Origin: Lentilactobacillus hilgardii DSM 20176 = ATCC 8290
GTDB lineage: Bacteria > Bacillota > Bacilli > Lactobacillales > Lactobacillaceae
Assembly: GCF_000159315.1 (NCBI RefSeq)
Contig: NZ_GG669999.1
Location: forward strand, 1-64,000
Length of the DNA stretch: 64,000 nucleotides
Direction of reading: 5' to 3'
The translations under genes were made by a program, and so were the position numbers. Every line of letters starts with the position of its first letter. The stretch's first letter is position 1. The notes under the pieces are model-generated. The model made no database searches. It saw nothing but the letters and a program-made list of their open reading frames with translations, and was not told where the DNA came from. Below are positions 59-12,913 of the stretch, piece after piece.

Positions 59-62
59 TGTT

Positions 63-135
63 GAGCCGTTAGCTCAGTTGGTAGAGCATCTGACTTTTAA
101 TCAGAGGGTCGGCAGTTCGAGACTGCCACGGCTCA
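63..135 (+). tRNA. tRNA-Lys(TTT)
   Basis: The acceptor GAGCCGT pairs with ACGGCTC, the discriminator is A, and the anticodon loop CTTTTAA gives TTT. It is 73 nt with all four arms intact and lies 4 nt after tRNA-Val, so it is surely co-transcribed. Confidence 0.96.
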
Positions 136-173
136 TTACAATTGAATATTATTTAGCGCATAATATATTGTAT

Positions 174-246
174 GCCGACTTAGCTCAGCTGGCAGAGCAC
201 CTGTCTTGTAAACAGGGGGTCGGAAGTTCGAATCTTCTAGTCGGCA
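174..246 (+). tRNA. tRNA-Thr(TGT)
   Basis: The acceptor GCCGACT pairs with AGTCGGC, the anticodon loop is CTTGTAA (TGT), and the gene is 73 nt with discriminator A. The 38-nt AT-rich spacer before it holds no obvious signal. Confidence 0.96.
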
Positions 247-250
247 TTTT

Positions 251-322
251 GCGGAAGTAGTTCAGTGGTAGAACATCACCTTGCCATGGTGGGGGTCGCG
301 GGTTCGAATCCCGTCTTCCGCT
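251..322 (+). tRNA. tRNA-Gly(GCC)
   Basis: The acceptor GCGGAAG pairs with CTTCCGC, the discriminator is T, and the anticodon is GCC in a TTGCCAT loop. It is 72 nt long. Confidence 0.96.
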
Positions 323-328
323 TGTTAT

Positions 329-414
329 GCCGGGGTGGCGGAATTGGCAGACGCACAGGACTTAAAATCCTGCGGTCAGTGATGACCGTACCGGTTCGAT
401 CCCGGTCCTCGGCA
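329..414 (+). tRNA. tRNA-Leu(TAA)
   Basis: This is an 86-nt class II tRNA with a long variable arm. The acceptor GCCGGGG pairs with CCTCGGC (one G-T), and the anticodon loop CTTAAAA gives TAA. Confidence 0.95.
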
Positions 415-420
415 TATTAT

Positions 421-494
421 GCACCCATAGCGCAACTGGATAGAGTGTCTGACTACGAATCAGAAGGTTGTAGGTTCGACTCCTACTGGGTGCA
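421..494 (+). tRNA. tRNA-Arg(ACG)
   Basis: The acceptor GCACCCA pairs with TGGGTGC. The anticodon is ACG, whose A34 is normally deaminated to inosine by TadA. It is 74 nt. Confidence 0.96.
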
Positions 495-503
495 TTGTTT
501 TAG

Positions 504-577
504 CGGGAAGTAGCTCAGCTTGGTAGAGCACCTGGTTTGGGACCAGGGGGTCGCAGGTTCGAATCCTGTCTTCCCGA
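504..577 (+). tRNA. tRNA-Pro(TGG)
   Basis: The acceptor CGGGAAG pairs with CTTCCCG, the anticodon is TGG, and the gene is 74 nt with discriminator A. Confidence 0.96.
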
Positions 578-609
578 TTGATAGGTTTGCTATCAAAAGT
601 ATCACACAT

Positions 610-683
610 CGCGGTGTAGCTCAGCTGGCTAGAGCGTCCGGTTCATACCCGGGAGGTCGAGGGTTCGATCCCCCCTGCCGCGA
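610..683 (+). tRNA. tRNA-Met(CAT), elongator
   Basis: The acceptor CGCGGTG pairs with TGCCGCG, and the CAT anticodon sits in a TTCATAC loop, as in the elongator Met tRNA of Gram-positives. The T stem GAGGG/CCCCC holds one A-C mismatch. A D arm with GCTC, unlike the initiator, argues for the elongator. Confidence 0.9.
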
Positions 684-704
684 TTTAGGGTCTTGGACCT
701 TCTT

Positions 705-778
705 GGACCTTTAGCTCAGTTGGTTAGAGCAGACGGCTCATAACCGTCCGGTCGTAGGTTCGAGTCCTACAAGGTCCA
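705..778 (+). tRNA. tRNA-Ile2(CAT), expected to carry lysidine
   Basis: The acceptor GGACCTT pairs with AAGGTCC, with CAT in a CTCATAA loop. The body closely resembles known bacterial tRNA-Ile2 species, in which TilS converts C34 to lysidine so that AUA is read. It is neither the fMet body nor the elongator body found elsewhere in this array. Assignment as Ile2 is by resemblance. A 10-bp tandem duplication (TCTTGGACCT twice, 691-710) covers its 5' end. Confidence 0.85.
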
Positions 779-816
779 TTTGACTCAATATTATATGTTT
801 TTTTATAGTTACTTAT

Positions 817-904
817 GGAGGATTACCCAAGTGGCTGAAGGGGGCGGTCTTGAAAACCGCTAGGTGGGTCAAACCACGCGAGAGTTCGAATCTCTCATCC
901 TCCT
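817..904 (+). tRNA. tRNA-Ser(TGA)
   Basis: This is an 88-nt class II tRNA. The acceptor GGAGGAT pairs with ATCCTCC, the anticodon loop CTTGAAA gives TGA, and there is a long variable arm. The discriminator is T rather than the G usual for serine tRNAs. Confidence 0.93.
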
Positions 905-913
905 TTTAATTAT

Positions 914-987
<74 letters not shown>

Positions 988-991
988 TTTT

Positions 992-1065
992 GGTTCGTTG
1001 GTCTAGTTGGTTAGGACGCCTGCCTGTCACGCAGGAGATCACGGGTTCGAGTCTCGTACGGACCG
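992..1065 (+). tRNA. tRNA-Asp(GTC), copy 1
   Basis: The acceptor GGTTCGT pairs with ACGGACC, the discriminator is G, and the anticodon is GTC. The T stem ACGGG/CTCGT has a G-T pair that the second copy replaces with A-T. Confidence 0.95.
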
Positions 1066-1070
1066 TTTTT

Positions 1071-1143
1071 GGCTCGGTAGCTCAGTCGGTAGAGCAATGG
1101 ATTGAAGCTCCATGTGTCGGCAGTTCGATTCTGTCCCGCGCCA
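1071..1143 (+). tRNA. tRNA-Phe(GAA) with acceptor-stem mismatch
   Basis: The anticodon loop is TTGAAGC (GAA). The acceptor GGCTCGG faces CCGCGCC, so the fourth pair is T-C instead of T-A; the other six pairs are Watson-Crick. The D, anticodon and T arms are intact. It may be functional with a weakened stem, or reflect a base error. Confidence 0.9.
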
Positions 1144-1161
1144 CTATGATTAATTGAATAT

Positions 1162-1232
1162 GCGGGTGTAGTTTAGTGGTAAAACCACAGCCTTCCAAGC
1201 TGTTGTCGCGAGTCCGATTCTCGTCACCCGCT
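1162..1232 (+). tRNA. tRNA-Gly(TCC)
   Basis: The acceptor GCGGGTG pairs with CACCCGC, the discriminator is T, the anticodon is TCC, and the gene is 71 nt with a short D loop. It is a second glycine isoacceptor beside GCC at 251. Confidence 0.95.
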
Positions 1233-1249
1233 TTTTCTTATGTTATAAT

Positions 1250-1323
<74 letters not shown>

Positions 1324-1327
1324 TATT

Positions 1328-1415
1328 GGAGAAATACTCAAGTGGCTGAAGAGGCGCCCCTGCTAAGGGTGTAGGTCGCGTAAGCGGCGCGAGAGTTCGA
1401 ATCTCTCTTTCTCCG
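1328..1415 (+). tRNA. tRNA-Ser(GCT)
   Basis: This is an 88-nt class II tRNA. The acceptor GGAGAAA pairs with TTTCTCC, the discriminator is G, the anticodon is GCT, and there is a long variable arm. Confidence 0.95.
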
Positions 1416-1421
1416 TTAAAT

Positions 1422-1493
1422 GACCCGTTGGTCAAGTGGGTAAGACACCGCCCTTTCACGGCGGTAACATGGGTTCAAATCCCGTACGGGTCA
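1422..1493 (+). tRNA. tRNA-Glu(TTC)
   Basis: The acceptor GACCCGT pairs with ACGGGTC, the discriminator is A, and the anticodon is TTC in a CTTTCAC loop. It is 72 nt. Its wobble U34 would be a substrate for the MnmA thiolase encoded at 56858. Confidence 0.94.
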
Positions 1494-1523
1494 TTCAATG
1501 CATAGTTTATTATTTTATATTAT

Positions 1524-1597
<74 letters not shown>

Positions 1598-1601
1598 TTT
1601 T

Positions 1602-1675
1602 GGTTCGTTGGTCTAGTTGGTTAGGACGCCTGCCTGTCACGCAGGAGATCACGAGTTCGAGTCTCGTACGGACCG
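1602..1675 (+). tRNA. tRNA-Asp(GTC), copy 2
   Basis: Identical to the copy at 992-1065 except for A at 1654, which gives a fully Watson-Crick T stem (ACGAG/CTCGT). Last gene of the cluster before the terminator. Confidence 0.95.
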
Positions 1676-1704
1676 TCACTTAAACGAATGTCTCCAAAGA
1701 TTTG

Positions 1705-7058: not shown

Positions 7059-8072
7059 TTATTCAAATACTTGGTTTTTACTTGGCCTGGCATAGTACAT
7101 GGTCGTTTTATGACCATGTTTTGAAGCATCATGAACTTCCTGTGTTGCCGATTGAAACCCGCTTGTTTTAGCAACGATATAAAGTGGACGCTTTCTGGAA
7201 GCTTCAAAGATACGATACAGATATGATCCAACCAGTCCTAAAGACAGGAAGACAAGCCCAACTAACAAGAAAAGAGAAAAGACGGCAAATTGGAGCGTTT
7301 TAAATCCGGTGAAAAGTGTGATAATCAAGTAACCGATACTGAAAATGATTGAAAGAGTTCCCAGCCAATTTGCGAGTTGTAATGGAAAGGCTGAAAACGA
7401 GGTGACACCGTCCATCGCAAGTCGGATCATTTTAGAGAGTGGATATTTGGATTCACCGGCAATCCTTTCCTGGCGTTCATATTCGACTGAAGCCTGATTG
7501 AATCCAACCCAACTGACCATTCCTCTCACGTAAGGATCCGTTTCGTTCATCTTTGAAAGCTCATGGACTACTTTACGATCCATCAATCGAAAGTCGCCTG
7601 TATCTAGAGGAATATTTATACTGGTGATCTTTCTAAGTGTGCGATAAAAGATTGCGGCTGTTATTTTTTTGAAAAAGGTTTCGCCATCTCGGGAAACACG
7701 TTTACCGTAAACAACCTCAGCACCTTCCTTCCATTTTTTGATCATTTCAACAATTACCGAGGGTGGATCCTGCAAATCGGCGTCCATGACAACGACTGCA
7801 TCACCACTGGTATATCTGATGCCAGCTGTGATTGCCAACTGATGCCCAAAATTTCTTGAAAATTGCACAACTTTTATATTACGATGTAAATTTTGTGCTT
7901 CATTGATGAGTGCGACACTTTTATCTTTTGATCCATCGTCAACGAAAATTAATTCAAATTTCTGAGGTTGATTACTGATAAAGGCTTCTAAAGTATCAAT
8001 TGTTCTTTCAATCACTTGTTCTTCATTAAAAACCGGAAGGACAACCGAAATTAAATCTGTGCTTTTTTCCAT
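7059..8072 (-). CDS. ykcC: GT2 polyprenyl-phosphate glycosyltransferase, GtrB/CsbB/YkcC type
   Basis: This 337-aa membrane-anchored enzyme should load a sugar from a nucleotide donor onto undecaprenyl phosphate. The N-terminal GT-A domain shows VVLPVFNEE, FVDDGS near 45 and the metal motif DADLQDP near 97-103. Two hydrophobic segments lie near 235-255 and 265-290, as in GtrB/DPM1. AAGGAGG lies 8 nt before ATG. Third gene of a three-gene operon with the GT-C enzyme and the GtrA-like protein. The sugar is unknown. Confidence 0.88.
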   Translation of the reverse strand: MEKSTDLISVVLPVFNEEQVIERTIDTLEAFISNQPQKFELIFVDDGSKDKSVALINEAQNLHRNIKVVQFSRNFGHQLAITAGIRYTSGDAVVVMDADLQDPPSVIVEMIKKWKEGAEVVYGKRVSRDGETFFKKITAAIFYRTLRKITSINIPLDTGDFRLMDRKVVHELSKMNETDPYVRGMVSWVGFNQASVEYERQERIAGESKYPLSKMIRLAMDGVTSFSAFPLQLANWLGTLSIIFSIGYLIITLFTGFKTLQFAVFSLFLLVGLVFLSLGLVGSYLYRIFEASRKRPLYIVAKTSGFQSATQEVHDASKHGHKTTMYYARPSKNQVFE

Positions 8073-8089: not shown

Positions 8090-10351
8090 TTATTTATAAA
8101 TTGTGGACAAATCATATAGTGTTCCTGATGATCCCATACCGCCCATACCAGTTGGCATTGCGGTTTGTGATTTCTTGGTAGATTGTTTATTGCCGGTCTT
8201 AGCAGCGGACTTGGATGAGGTTGACTGTTTTATCTTGCTAGGAACGCCTTTGCCTGGCATGTTTTTGCCATTTCCCATACCTTTTGGTACATTTGGTGTT
8301 GTGGCTGATTTTTTCGAGTATTCTGGCTTATTAGTCGATCCTTTGGATGTTGAAGTACCAAAACCGCCAAATTGTTGCTTGCTGTTTGAGTCTTGATACA
8401 AACTACTTTTGACTTTAGTAGCATGTTTTTTGATCCAATTAATAATCTTGGTATTTCCGGAACGGCCGGAGTAATAGAAATACTTTAGATCACCATTTTT
8501 AACGAGTTTTTTAAATTGGGGAAGTGTAATTGCCGGATCGGTTCCATTGAAACCACCCATTGCCATAACCGCTTTTCCGGTTTTAATAATATATGGAGCA
8601 GCGGTAGTTGAATCACTGGTTGCAAAAAGATATTTTGCGTTTCCTTGATGTTTTTCCAAGTAATTCAATAGTTTTGTATTCACCTTGGAACTGCTCATAC
8701 CACCACCAGGTCCTGAGCTGCTGGTGGACAGAAGGGACGGTCCAGCGGTGGGAATCATAGCCGATTCTGCTGAAAGAGTCGGTGTAAGTGACCACCATCC
8801 GGGAGCGATAAGAATAGTGATTGTCGCCACAACCATGCTGATCTTACTTGCGTTATTCTTAGGAAAAATGAATAAAAGAAGTGATGCAATGATCGTGATT
8901 CCCAAGATTAACCATGTCAGCCATGGATAATAACTGTAAACATACCCAGCCTGTAGTGCCGCTGTGGCTAAAATGGCAATCGGGAAGAGATAGAATTTCC
9001 AGCTTGTTCTGGTATTATCTTTAAATAATCTGGTTAATGAAACGGTACCGATTCCGAAAAGCGCTGCAATTGGTGGTGCCAGCATAATTGTATAATAAGG
9101 ATGAAAGAAACTGGCGACCGAGAAGAAACCATATACGGGGACCAACCATCCTGTCCAAAGTACCAATTGCTTTTGCTCATGGGAAAGAGAATACCATCGC
9201 TTTTTTCGATCATGGTAATAGGTGAAACTGCCAATTAAACCAGTAATGGCAAATGGAAGCAACCAGCTAATTTGTGGTCCTAATGATGACTGGAACAATC
9301 TGAATGGTCCAATTGTACCGATATCAAAGGCACCACCGGCACCCATATTTTGCCGTCCTTTTTGACCGCCAGGAGTGCCTGTTGGCATTGTTGCCTTACC
9401 ATTTCCCCCCTTTTTTATGGCATTCTTGGTACCAGTTGGTATTTTACCATTGCTGGGCATGCCCGTACTCTTTGACTGACTCTTAGAAGTCATACCGGCT
9501 CCAAAGGTTCCGCCGGTTCCCGTTGTTTGTCCAAGCAGACGCTCGGTGCCATTGTATCCAAATGCCAATTCTAGTTCCGAATTGGTTTCAGAACCGCCAA
9601 CATAAGGACGCTGACTTGCCGGGGTCAAATCGACCGAGACGGGATAGGCGAGGGTGAAAACAGCTAGTCCTACCGTTGCCAAAATGAGTTTTTTAACCTT
9701 TTGTTTCCAGTTTTCATTAGCTGCCAACCAGTAGAATAAGTACATGGCTGGTAAAATCATAAAAGCCTGTAACATTTTAACGTTAAAAGCAATACCAATT
9801 AGAGAAAAGCTGACAATAGGTGCCCAGACTTTTTTCTGCACAATCGCCTTTTCAAGGAACCAAAGCGCTAGGAGTAAGAAAAAGACTAAAGTGGCATCCA
9901 TATTATTTGTTCGTGAATCAGCTACCACGATTGGCGTGATCGTCATTGCTAAAGCAGCAAGTCGGCCAGCATTTTTGCCGAAATATGGTGCAACCAATCG
10001 GTGCATCAAATAGATGGAACCAACTCCAAATAGGACAGATGGCAGTACGATACTCCAACCATGCAACCCAAATATTTTTGCACTAATAGCCATAAACCAA
10101 AGGGCCACAGGTGGCTTATCAACCGTAATGTACCCGGCCGGATCAAAACTACCGTACCAAAAGTTGCTGAAGCTTTCGGTCATGCTTTTGATCGCGGCAG
10201 TATAAAATGCGTTGGCAGAACCTGCTTTCCATATTTGCCAACCGTATAAAAACAATGCCAGCAGTAGAATAACTGTTAATATCCAATCAAATCGAAATTT
10301 CTTTCTTGATTGACTTTGGATATTGCGTGACGAATAATTATTGATTTCCAA
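8090..10351 (-). CDS. ykcB: GT-C membrane glycosyltransferase, YkcB/PMT-like
   Basis: This 753-aa polytopic enzyme of the PMT/ArnT superfamily has many membrane helices. DKPP near residue 76 and SRTNNMDATL near 145-155 match catalytic-loop patterns of this superfamily. It should transfer a lipid-linked sugar to an outer-surface acceptor, perhaps a teichoic acid or a protein. Two low-complexity Gly/Met/Ser/Thr/Lys-rich stretches (about 270-344 and 655-745) interrupt or extend the extracytoplasmic parts. Start is TTG with GGGAGG about 11 nt upstream. It overlaps the GtrA-like gene by 14 nt, suggesting coupled translation. Confidence 0.85.
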   Translation of the reverse strand: MEINNYSSRNIQSQSRKKFRFDWILTVILLLALFLYGWQIWKAGSANAFYTAAIKSMTESFSNFWYGSFDPAGYITVDKPPVALWFMAISAKIFGLHGWSIVLPSVLFGVGSIYLMHRLVAPYFGKNAGRLAALAMTITPIVVADSRTNNMDATLVFFLLLALWFLEKAIVQKKVWAPIVSFSLIGIAFNVKMLQAFMILPAMYLFYWLAANENWKQKVKKLILATVGLAVFTLAYPVSVDLTPASQRPYVGGSETNSELELAFGYNGTERLLGQTTGTGGTFGAGMTSKSQSKSTGMPSNGKIPTGTKNAIKKGGNGKATMPTGTPGGQKGRQNMGAGGAFDIGTIGPFRLFQSSLGPQISWLLPFAITGLIGSFTYYHDRKKRWYSLSHEQKQLVLWTGWLVPVYGFFSVASFFHPYYTIMLAPPIAALFGIGTVSLTRLFKDNTRTSWKFYLFPIAILATAALQAGYVYSYYPWLTWLILGITIIASLLLFIFPKNNASKISMVVATITILIAPGWWSLTPTLSAESAMIPTAGPSLLSTSSSGPGGGMSSSKVNTKLLNYLEKHQGNAKYLFATSDSTTAAPYIIKTGKAVMAMGGFNGTDPAITLPQFKKLVKNGDLKYFYYSGRSGNTKIINWIKKHATKVKSSLYQDSNSKQQFGGFGTSTSKGSTNKPEYSKKSATTPNVPKGMGNGKNMPGKGVPSKIKQSTSSKSAAKTGNKQSTKKSQTAMPTGMGGMGSSGTLYDLSTIYK

Positions 10352-10745
10352 AGTGTTGAGCCTCCCTCATTGATGAATTTTTGAATACCCAAAATTTTGA
10401 TAGTAGGAAATTAGTGGGTACAGTGATCACAAGACTAAAAATCGGAATTAGATGGTCATTGACCCCTGTGAAATGACTTAAAATATCGGCAATTGCTGTA
10501 CTGAGAAGCCAAGTAGATAGATAAGTGGCATAATACTTAATTACAACCGACTTGAAATAAGCGTGCGTTTTGAATACCCAATGATTATTTAATGTCAAGC
10601 TGATCAATGATGTACCCCCATAACCGATCGCCATTGCAATTGTTGCATTTGTAGGGGATAGCAACAATAAATAAATAGCGTAGGTCAAAAACGTATTTGC
10701 GAATCCGATGACTCCAAACTTTAATAATTGCTTGAATCCAGAAAT
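10338..10745 (-). CDS. GtrA-like small membrane protein with apparent ATT start
   Basis: This 135-aa protein with four membrane segments belongs to the GtrA/GtcA family, proposed to flip polyprenyl-phosphate sugars across the membrane. Conserved features include KFGVIGFANTFLTYAIYLLL at the N-terminus and the NNHWVFK and SKFWVFKN blocks. The only standard start in frame (TTG 10688) would delete half of the first helix. A near-perfect AAGGAGGG sits 7 nt before ATT at 10745, giving the full-length family N-terminus. The frame is closed by TAA seven codons upstream of that ATT, with no ATG, GTG or TTG between. First gene of the glycosylation operon. Confidence 0.8.
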   Translation of the reverse strand: MSGFKQLLKFGVIGFANTFLTYAIYLLLLSPTNATIAMAIGYGGTSLISLTLNNHWVFKTHAYFKSVVIKYYATYLSTWLLSTAIADILSHFTGVNDHLIPIFSLVITVPTNFLLSKFWVFKNSSMREAQHFGNQ

Positions 10746-10910
10746 GGTTGGTCCCTCCTTCTCTTAGAATGAAAACTATTTTATCCAAATAACCATAAAT
10801 TAAGCTTAAAAATTTTCGTTTCAATTAATTTCAAATTGAACAGTTGACGAATGAGAAGAAAACGGATAGTTTATGAGAAGGTTATAATTGGTGAAAAGGA
10901 GAAAATGTAA

Positions 10911-11603
10911 ATGAAAGAACTGCATATCTTAATAATTGAAGATGATGAATCATTAGCCCAAAGCTTACAATTGTTTCTTGGAGAAATTGCCCAAACCACC
11001 GTTTCCCATGATGGTTTTGAAGGACAGATGCTGGGTGAAGAGGGCATTTATGACTTAGTAGTTCTGGATTTGATGCTTCCCCAGGTCAATGGCTACGATA
11101 TCTTGAAACATTGGCGAACAGAGTCTCATTTATCGATGCCGGTGTTGATTTTAACCGCAAAAGATACGCTTGATGATAAAGTACACGGCTTTGAACTTGG
11201 AGCCGACGATTATCTAACAAAGCCGTTTCACCGTGAGGAACTATTAATGCGAGTGAAAGCATTACTTAAACGTAGTGGTCACTTGGGAAACGATAATCAA
11301 ATGGTTGTTGAACCATTTACGGTTGACTTAAGTAATCGAACAGTGACTGTTAGGGATCAGCAGTTAGAACTAAATGGTAAGGAATTCGATTTATTAGTCT
11401 ATTTTCTACAGAACCCCGATACGATTATCACGAAAGAACAGATTTTTGATCGTTTATGGGGATTCGAATCTGAGACGGCCATCTCGGTTGTTGAAGTATA
11501 TATGAGTAATTTGCGAAAAAAAATAAAAACGGCAACTGACTTAAAACCGATTAAGACGCTGAGAAATGTGGGGTACATGTTCGAAACGAAGGAACTTGAT
11601 TGA
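10911..11603 (+). CDS. Response regulator, OmpR/PhoB family
   Basis: This 230-aa protein has a receiver domain (about 1-120) with the acidic pocket EDD near 9-11, phospho-acceptor D53 (VVLDLMLP) and K in LTKPF near 104. A winged-helix DNA-binding domain follows (about 130-225: ELNGKEFDLLVYFLQNP...NLRKKI). AAAGGAG lies about 10 nt before ATG. It is divergent from the glycosylation operon across a ~165-bp gap, so it may regulate those genes (inference). It overlaps the kinase gene by 4 nt. Confidence 0.92.
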   Translation: MKELHILIIEDDESLAQSLQLFLGEIAQTTVSHDGFEGQMLGEEGIYDLVVLDLMLPQVNGYDILKHWRTESHLSMPVLILTAKDTLDDKVHGFELGADDYLTKPFHREELLMRVKALLKRSGHLGNDNQMVVEPFTVDLSNRTVTVRDQQLELNGKEFDLLVYFLQNPDTIITKEQIFDRLWGFESETAISVVEVYMSNLRKKIKTATDLKPIKTLRNVGYMFETKELD

Positions 11604-12913
11604 TTAAAGGGGATCCACAAAAGAAACAGCAACTATCATTGTTTGCTAAGGAATTAATTGGATTTGCGCTTTTATTTGCAATTCTAGGATTAGTTGTCAA
11701 TTTCTTTTTTCAACAATCAATTTATGAAAATATCGATCGTGGTTTGAATTGGCAAAGAATAGGAATACTGACCAATCGACGGCAGCCGACATTCAGAACG
11801 GGTCAGTCAAATCCATCACAAGGGCAGGTCCTGCCTGCTAGGAATACGCCCTTTAGGACCAATGTGTTGGTCTTTAACAGTAAGGGAAAAATAATGAACA
11901 ATCAGATGTTGGGCAATCGACTTTATAATGTTTTTGTTAATACGCGCCTTGATGTTTCAAAAGTTAATAAAATTCGGGAAATGACATTAATGTCATCCGA
12001 CAACTCATGGCATTATTTTCGAACACTGCTTATTAAAGTACCGAAAACTAATAAAAGCCCTATGTATGCCGGACGATATGTGTTGATACTGGAAAATATT
12101 GATTCGGATTTACTTGCGATTCGTGGCTTTCGACAATCCTTATTAATAACATTACTGGTATTTTGGTTCTTAGCGATTGCAGTGGCTTACTTTTTGTCGA
12201 AATCCAGCATGAAGCCGATCCTGGAGTCATGGAATCGCCAAAAACAGTTTAGTGCGAATGCAGCTCATGAATTGCGAACGCCGCTGACAGTCATCCAAAA
12301 CCAAATGGAATATATGCTGACCAAGCCCAAAGCAACAATCATCGATCAGGCAGAACCAATTTCAACAACACTTGATGAGGTGAGACATTTGCAGACACTG
12401 ACAAATCGACTCTTAATGCTTGCCCGTTCAGATGCCGATATTATTCAAATTAATCGTCAAAATGTTTCATTGCAATCTTGGTTTGATCAGGTCATTAAAC
12501 CCTATATTGATATTGCAAATAGCCAGACAAAAGCGATGGAAACTTATATTCGTGTTTCAGGTGAAGGAAAGATTGATGAAGATTTAATTCGCCAGCTCAT
12601 AATTATCTTATTGGATAATGCGATTAAGTATACGCCTGAGGATGGCACGGTCACTTTCACCGCTGAGAAAATTCGTGATGGTCGGCTTAAAATCGAGGTT
12701 AAAGACACCGGACCAGGCATTTCAGACAATGATAAAAAACACGTTTTCGAGAGATTTTATCGCTCTGATAAATCCCGTAATGCTAAGACGGGTGGAAATG
12801 GGTTGGGATTGGCGATTGCAAAATGGATAGTCGATGAACATAAGGGCACCATTTCAGTCAAAGATAATCATCCAAACGGTACTATTTTTATGGTTGTTGT
12901 CCCAATTAAATAA
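11600..12913 (+). CDS. Sensor histidine kinase
   Basis: This 437-aa membrane kinase has helices near 15-38 and 178-198 bracketing a ~140-residue extracytoplasmic sensor region. The HisKA box holds the phospho-acceptor H223 (AAHELRTPLT). The ATPase domain has DNAIKYTPEDG, DTGPGIS and GGNGLGLAIAK. Start TTG overlaps the regulator stop (TTGA). The signal is unknown. The short loop between TM2 and HisKA means a HAMP domain is absent or very degenerate. Confidence 0.92.
   Translation: MIKGDPQKKQQLSLFAKELIGFALLFAILGLVVNFFFQQSIYENIDRGLNWQRIGILTNRRQPTFRTGQSNPSQGQVLPARNTPFRTNVLVFNSKGKIMNNQMLGNRLYNVFVNTRLDVSKVNKIREMTLMSSDNSWHYFRTLLIKVPKTNKSPMYAGRYVLILENIDSDLLAIRGFRQSLLITLLVFWFLAIAVAYFLSKSSMKPILESWNRQKQFSANAAHELRTPLTVIQNQMEYMLTKPKATIIDQAEPISTTLDEVRHLQTLTNRLLMLARSDADIIQINRQNVSLQSWFDQVIKPYIDIANSQTKAMETYIRVSGEGKIDEDLIRQLIIILLDNAIKYTPEDGTVTFTAEKIRDGRLKIEVKDTGPGISDNDKKHVFERFYRSDKSRNAKTGGNGLGLAIAKWIVDEHKGTISVKDNHPNGTIFMVVVPIK

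Follow-up and report, generated by a model that had tools for sequence, protein, structure and literature searches.

Few bacterial genes with conserved non-AUG start codons have been characterized (PMC5472188). The infC gene starts with ATT in Bacillus subtilis (PMC6097659) and with AUA in Staphylococcus aureus (PMC13009471). The S. aureus genes ccpN (AUA) and cvfC1 (AUU) have a conserved non-canonical start, shared by ccpN with B. subtilis and by cvfC1 among staphylococci, together with an extended Shine-Dalgarno (SD) sequence; in reporter fusions, AUU or AUA with an extended SD sequence gave about 10% of the output of AUG (up to 30% for ccpN, rich medium) (PMC13009471). In Streptomyces, sigR starts with GTC in 32 of 34 species and with GTT in the other two, behind an extended ribosome-binding site (RBS), and its repression by initiation factor 3 (IF3) keeps SigR below RsrA (PMC5472188). 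The pncA gene of Borrelia burgdorferi also has a documented non-canonical start, and its database entries are still truncated (PMC13398362). In the present study, we examined a gtrA-like flippase gene of Lentilactobacillus hilgardii DSM 20176 in a stretch of 64,000 nucleotides (contig NZ_GG669999.1, positions 1 to 64,000; hereafter the window). We found that the codon at the putative start of this gene is AUU, AUC, or AUA (AUH) in all of its orthologues found in 24 genomes of the genus.

The product of the gene matches the Pfam profile GtrA_DPMS_TM (PF04138) over the full length of the profile (GtrA residues 9-121, profile positions 1-117 of 117; E 1.7e-16; 60.9 bits against a gathering cut-off of 26.1). 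An earlier note on this DNA had taken ATT at 10745 for the start, with a ribosome site 7 nt before it and no ATG, GTG, or TTG codon between the upstream in-frame TAA and TTG at 10688. Direct reading of the minus strand bears out both details. The leader consists of AAGGAGGG (10760-10753), the spacer ACCAACC, and ATT (10745-10743), and the codons that follow are TCT GGA TTC AAG CAA TTA TTA AAG TTT GGA GTC ATC GGA TTC; after the TAA at 10766-10764, the reading frame has no canonical codon before TTG 10688 (codon +19). The note was mistaken in describing this TTG as the only normal start downstream, as further in-frame canonical codons follow it, among them TTG at codons 26 and 27 and ATG at codon 37.

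The comparison of orthologous start codons that had been proposed earlier gave a uniform outcome. We searched 24 genomes of the genus Lentilactobacillus and obtained 17 gtrA matches, of which 15 were kept: the window gene and 14 relatives 59-84% identical to the window GtrA, with one genome per species (five of the 15 genomes are L. raoultii, L. farraginis, L. dabitei, L. kefiri, and L. otakiensis). Two loci were dropped before counting as not being the same gene, namely L016, which is 38% identical and has an ATG of its own, and L017 (E 1e-4). The DNA of L018-L022 is identical to that of L002, L003, L007, L014, and L010 and provides no extra evidence; thus, these loci were also dropped before counting. 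L023-L025 belong to other genera and were left out of the genus counts. In the 15 orthologues, the codon aligned with ATT 10745 (hereafter codon 0) is ATT in six, ATC in eight, and ATA in one, and in none is it ATG, GTG, or TTG. When offsets from -18 to +18 nt were scanned for an AUH or canonical codon present in all 15, the only fixed codon besides codon 0 was an out-of-frame ATT at +17, which sits within the conserved stretch AAGCAATT. The conservation of codon 0 appears to raise the finding from a curiosity to a trait of the genus, and we consider it very probable that the AUH codon is the start actually used by gtrA, as the earlier note had supposed for the ATT.

The ribosome site before codon 0 is long. 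As a measure, we used the longest contiguous match, within the 22 nt before codon 0, to the complement of the 16S rRNA 3' end (GGATCACCTCCTTTCTA, which occurs in the window genome). The control set comprised 47 non-overlapping open reading frames (ORFs) of the window with at least 150 aa, and the best start was taken for each. Among the 15 AUH genes, the match spanned 7-9 nt, with a median of 9, and ended 6-10 nt before codon 0; among the 47 ORFs, the median was 5 and no match exceeded 8 nt. The median duplex energy was -15.8 kcal/mol for gtrA versus -11.4 kcal/mol for the ORFs (Mann-Whitney p 9e-6, the 15 rows being related to each other). For 19 canonical-start gtrA relatives, taken from the 41 outgroup loci described below, the median match was 7 (range 4-12) and the median energy was -13.2 kcal/mol (p 0.03).

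Outside the genus, a family-wide search of 397 genomes yielded 50 with a match of E 1e-10 or better. Starts were read for 41 loci of other genera, and 20 of these were kept as syntenic, i.e., having the motifs of the divergent response regulator and of the GT-C glycosyltransferase gene beside gtrA. In all 20, an ATG, GTG, or TTG codon occurs no more than two codons away from the aligned position. These loci are spread over four genera, but 13 belong to a single genus and some are nearly identical, so that they represent fewer than 20 independent cases. As judged from these alignments, the AUH start of gtrA is a Lentilactobacillus trait. It probably had a single origin, which the 44-row GtrA protein tree, lacking resolution at its base, does not prove. 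Separately, seven genomes of the genus g23 (L073-L078, L051) were observed to carry a gtrA copy with a TAA inside the matched stretch and with no response-regulator motif nearby.

As far as its sequence tells, gtrA has the features that mark infC, ccpN, and sigR: a conserved non-canonical start, an extended SD sequence at normal spacing, and no shared canonical start nearby. The infC start belongs to the class of non-AUG starts discriminated by IF3 and is likewise conserved between species. However, infC encodes IF3 and is hence autoregulated, whereas gtrA encodes a membrane flippase and could be no more than a target of IF3. The hint of infC-like control in the earlier note is borne out in part: the codon class and the extended ribosome site resemble those of known IF3-sensitive genes, and infC of this genus has ATA behind its ribosome site in 23 of 24 genomes. 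The start of Escherichia coli pcnB is also AUU and reportedly limits expression. Although ccpN and cvfC1 share with gtrA a conserved non-canonical start and an extended SD sequence in a Gram-positive bacterium, they encode a soluble regulator or a small protein and were measured by Ribo-Ret and reporters (PMC13009471), whereas the case for gtrA comes from sequence. sigR resembles gtrA in its genus-wide non-canonical start, its extensive RBS, and its place as the upstream gene of an operon, and its start sets the stoichiometry with the next gene; it differs in that its codon class is GUY, its product is a sigma factor, and the effect of IF3 is experimental (PMC5472188). In gene content, the closest systems are GtcA, CflA, and B. 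subtilis YkcBC, in which a PF04138 flippase occurs beside GT-A and PMT_2/YkcB_C GT-C enzymes; the excerpt describing them makes no mention of a non-canonical start (PMC8035078). Conserved non-canonical starts are already known from infC, ccpN, cvfC1, and sigR, and gtrA adds a case. Among the papers listed from the open-licence literature, judged by title and the opening of the abstract (subscription papers being mostly outside the scope), none concerned a gtrA with an AUH or other non-AUG start, and none concerned a non-canonical start in Lentilactobacillus.

Within the window, gtrA was the sole convincing AUH start; a plus-strand frame of 67 codons at 7963, which lies across the glycosyltransferase gene, was set aside. 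The pattern AAGGAGG-N5-9-ATH occurs at 58 sites in the window genome, among which only gtrA and a tetR-family gene (two sites) open a frame of at least 30 codons without a nearby ATG, GTG, or TTG start. The pattern AAAGGAG-N6-10-ATH occurs at 103 places genome-wide; among the 88 distinct sites screened, a 51-codon frame was unconvincing and a 75-codon frame has an ATG eight codons in. The tetR-family gene (TetR_N, E 7.2e-9) lies beside an MFS transporter gene (L190, contig C111, about 86450, minus strand; also L113), and its apparent start in the window genome is ATA, in an ATT-ATA tandem behind AAGGAGG. Its starts among 11 orthologues are ATA in one, ATC in two, ATG in five, and TTG in three, and one of the ATC cases (G012) has an in-frame GTG three codons upstream as well. 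AUH is not fixed here, and, unlike in gtrA, AUH and canonical starts do interchange within the genus. In the infC gene of the genus, ATA lies 7 nt behind GGAGGTG and is followed by GCA/GCT, AAA/AGA, GAT, and ATG in 23 of 24 genomes (L090, L079-L101), infC of the 24th (G009, L102) being a sequence that could not be read. ATG is four codons past the ATA, which appears to be the infC start in view of its spacing and of the AUA and AUU starts of infC elsewhere.

We infer the following course of events. The canonical gtrA start would have been replaced, probably a single time, in the ancestor of the gtrA-bearing Lentilactobacillus species or earlier. The long SD helix would hold the AUU, AUC, or AUA codon in the ribosomal P site, where initiator tRNA-fMet (anticodon CAU) would mispair at the third base; IF3 would reject most of these complexes, and initiation on gtrA would proceed at a fraction of the AUG rate. 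The most likely reason for the retention of AUH would be a need for the GtrA flippase to be scarce relative to the GT-C and GT-A enzymes of the downstream genes; of these, the GT-C gene, unlike gtrA, starts at a canonical codon and is preceded by an SD sequence of its own. By analogy with the S. aureus and sigR cases, the flippase would be held at a lower level than its two enzymes by the AUH start. We assign a probability of about 0.6 to the whole statement, namely that gtrA starts at AUH, is initiated inefficiently, and has been selected for low output.

The anticodon stem of the initiator tRNA has three G-C pairs. Such an initiator-like stem was found in one tRNA-Met(CAU) and one tRNA-Gln(TTG) among 41 distinct tRNA sequences predicted in the window and in 30 tRNA loci of its genome; the sample comprised 30 of the 55 genome tRNA hits with their loci, plus the neighbours within those loci. 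No second initiator tRNA reading AUU or AUC was recognized among the 41 distinct tRNA sequences, and ordinary fMet initiation at the mismatched gtrA codon is presumably what would take place. A cluster of 18 tRNA genes is found at the left end of the window (62-1677).

Several observations weigh against the course of events given above. Three of the 19 outgroup genes exceed every AUH gene in SD match (L052 with 12 nt, and L060 and L062 with 10 nt); two of them start with TTG and one with GTG, and thus a long ribosome site is not peculiar to AUH genes. In the outgroup genera, the operon is the same but gtrA has a canonical start, so that a low flippase output is no general need. As the GT-C start overlaps the end of gtrA, weak translation of gtrA might lower the GT-C partner too. 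On a tree of the GtrA and GT-C proteins, only three third-base changes are needed for the 15 codons. In gtrA and the portion of the GT-C gene that was retrieved, 96 fourfold-degenerate columns are conserved in all 15 species, and 12 of these columns are without G in any species; hence, the chance of avoiding G by free third-base drift is about 0.12, or about 1 in 8. Finally, codon 0 differs only among isoleucine codons, the pattern expected of an internal isoleucine.

The few changes on the tree and the frequency of columns without G would suit a neutral relic, in which AUH is the true start, the canonical codon was lost once, and a strong SD sequence made the loss tolerable, with no selection afterwards. 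The interchange of AUH (three of 11), ATG, and TTG in tetR, which suggests that AUH starts may be tolerated, points in the same direction. We regard such a history as possible but rather unlikely, since no reversion occurred in 15 species even though GtrA identity to the window protein falls to 59%, and the start codons of tetR and of the GT-C gene do switch, whereas that of gtrA does not. Taken together, the sequences are suggestive of retention of AUH through selection, but do not prove it.

The restriction of codon 0 to isoleucine codons could also mean that AUH encodes an internal isoleucine and that translation starts at a canonical codon elsewhere, be it in a different frame or, with frameshifting, upstream. 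Four of the 15 loci (L006, L008, L011, and L012) have upstream in-frame canonical codons; however, the other 11 have none between the upstream stop and codon 0, and in three species an in-frame stop occurs at codon -2 or -3. The most widespread canonical codon at offsets from -18 to +18 is GTG at -11, which is present in only five of the 15, is out of frame, and overlaps the SD sequence, the spacing of which suits codon 0. This explanation is therefore improbable.

Very unlikely indeed is a short product made only from TTG 10688. Although TTG is a legal start, this one is not conserved, as the first downstream canonical codon stands anywhere from codon 7 to codon 37 among the 15 (ATG 37 in four species). 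As the earlier note had remarked, it is far from any ribosome site, the best upstream element being GGA, 15 nt before it. The note had also expected a start there to cut into the first membrane helix; in a structure model of modest confidence (mean pLDDT 64.7), to which we give little weight, residues 1-19 would be lost, comprising 17 of the 27 residues of the predicted helix 3-29, together with the start of the Pfam domain. A sequencing error or a lone inactivating mutation in this strain, the least likely explanation of all, is refuted by the occurrence of AUH in all 15 genomes compared within the genus, each from a different species, and by the intact gtrA frame.

The genes around gtrA and the elements of its leader are shown in Table 1. 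A PMT_2+YkcB_C gene and a GT2 gene adjoin gtrA, and this is the gene set of a multi-component transmembrane glycosylation system. In Lactobacillus johnsonii, a gtrA-gtrB pair is needed for an exopolysaccharide (PMC7117936). The GT-C gene starts with ATG in nine and with TTG in six of the 15 genus loci and overlaps the end of gtrA by 11-17 nt (26 nt in L012); in L005 and L007, an alternative ATG just past the end of gtrA is possible.

Table 1. Positions of gtrA, its leader elements, and the neighbouring genes in the window
Feature	Position	Strand	Remarks
gtrA-like flippase gene	10338..10745	-	135 codons, ATT 10745-10743 to stop TAA 10340-10338; PF04138 match and orthologue starts
Putative ATT start codon of gtrA	10743..10745	-	AUH at matching codon in 15/15 genus orthologues
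Extended SD sequence AAGGAGGG of gtrA	10753..10760	-	7 nt before ATT; duplex -17.5 kcal/mol
In-frame TAA closing the gtrA frame upstream (codon -7)	10764..10766	-	Read from sequence
-10-like TAAAAT of gtrA, putative promoter, leader of about 30 nt	10778..10783	-	Alignment: TAAAAT/TAAACT/TAGAAT
Direct repeat TTTAAGCTTAATTTATGGTT, 11-nt period, upstream of gtrA	10791..10810	-	Proposed response-regulator site
ArnT/YkcB-like GT-C glycosyltransferase	8090..10351	-	TTG start, 14-nt overlap with gtrA 3' end; SD-like GGGAGG 10366-10361
Family 2 (GT-A) glycosyltransferase, third operon gene	7059..8072	-	Profile match
Divergent OmpR-type response regulator	10911..11603	+	Profile match
Sensor histidine kinase	11600..12913	+	Profile match

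All 15 genus orthologues have the 20-nt direct repeat TTTAAGCTTNNTTTATGNTT upstream of gtrA, with at most one mismatch, and the response-regulator motif adjoins gtrA in 14 of the 15 genus loci and in 20 outgroup loci. The repeat and the divergent response-regulator gene suggest two-component control of gtrA. Five more sites of the repeat were found in the 24 genomes, with the same variant in G005 and G016, and the response regulator might have a second target there. In L003, the response-regulator gene divergent from gtrA is broken into two frames, which reflects a pseudogene or an assembly error. A promoter consensus scan gave three sites versus 3.2 expected and none at the proposed -10 of gtrA; thus, the argument for this promoter is its conservation. 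No leader RNA structure was predicted as conserved over the 15 sequences, and there was no Rfam match within 10000-11200.

Conserved non-AUG starts are seldom characterized, partly because gene finders accept only ATG, GTG, and TTG, and the automatic annotation of AUH-started GtrA proteins may well be truncated. The gtrA gene is a genus-wide case in a membrane flippase that was revealed by comparison alone. The combination of a long SD sequence, a conserved AUH codon, and no canonical alternative would offer a cheap genome-wide test for hidden IF3 targets, and the 15 AUH and 20 canonical-start syntenic orthologues form a natural set for the study of start-codon attenuation of envelope glycosylation. 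As a speculation that we hold to be unlikely, the AUH start would couple envelope glycosylation throughout the genus to the condition of the translation apparatus: a shortage of IF3 relative to ribosomes would increase the synthesis of the flippase, on top of the two-component control of the promoter, and in gtrA-bearing Lentilactobacillus species gtrA would be a member of the IF3 regulon outside translation and stress.

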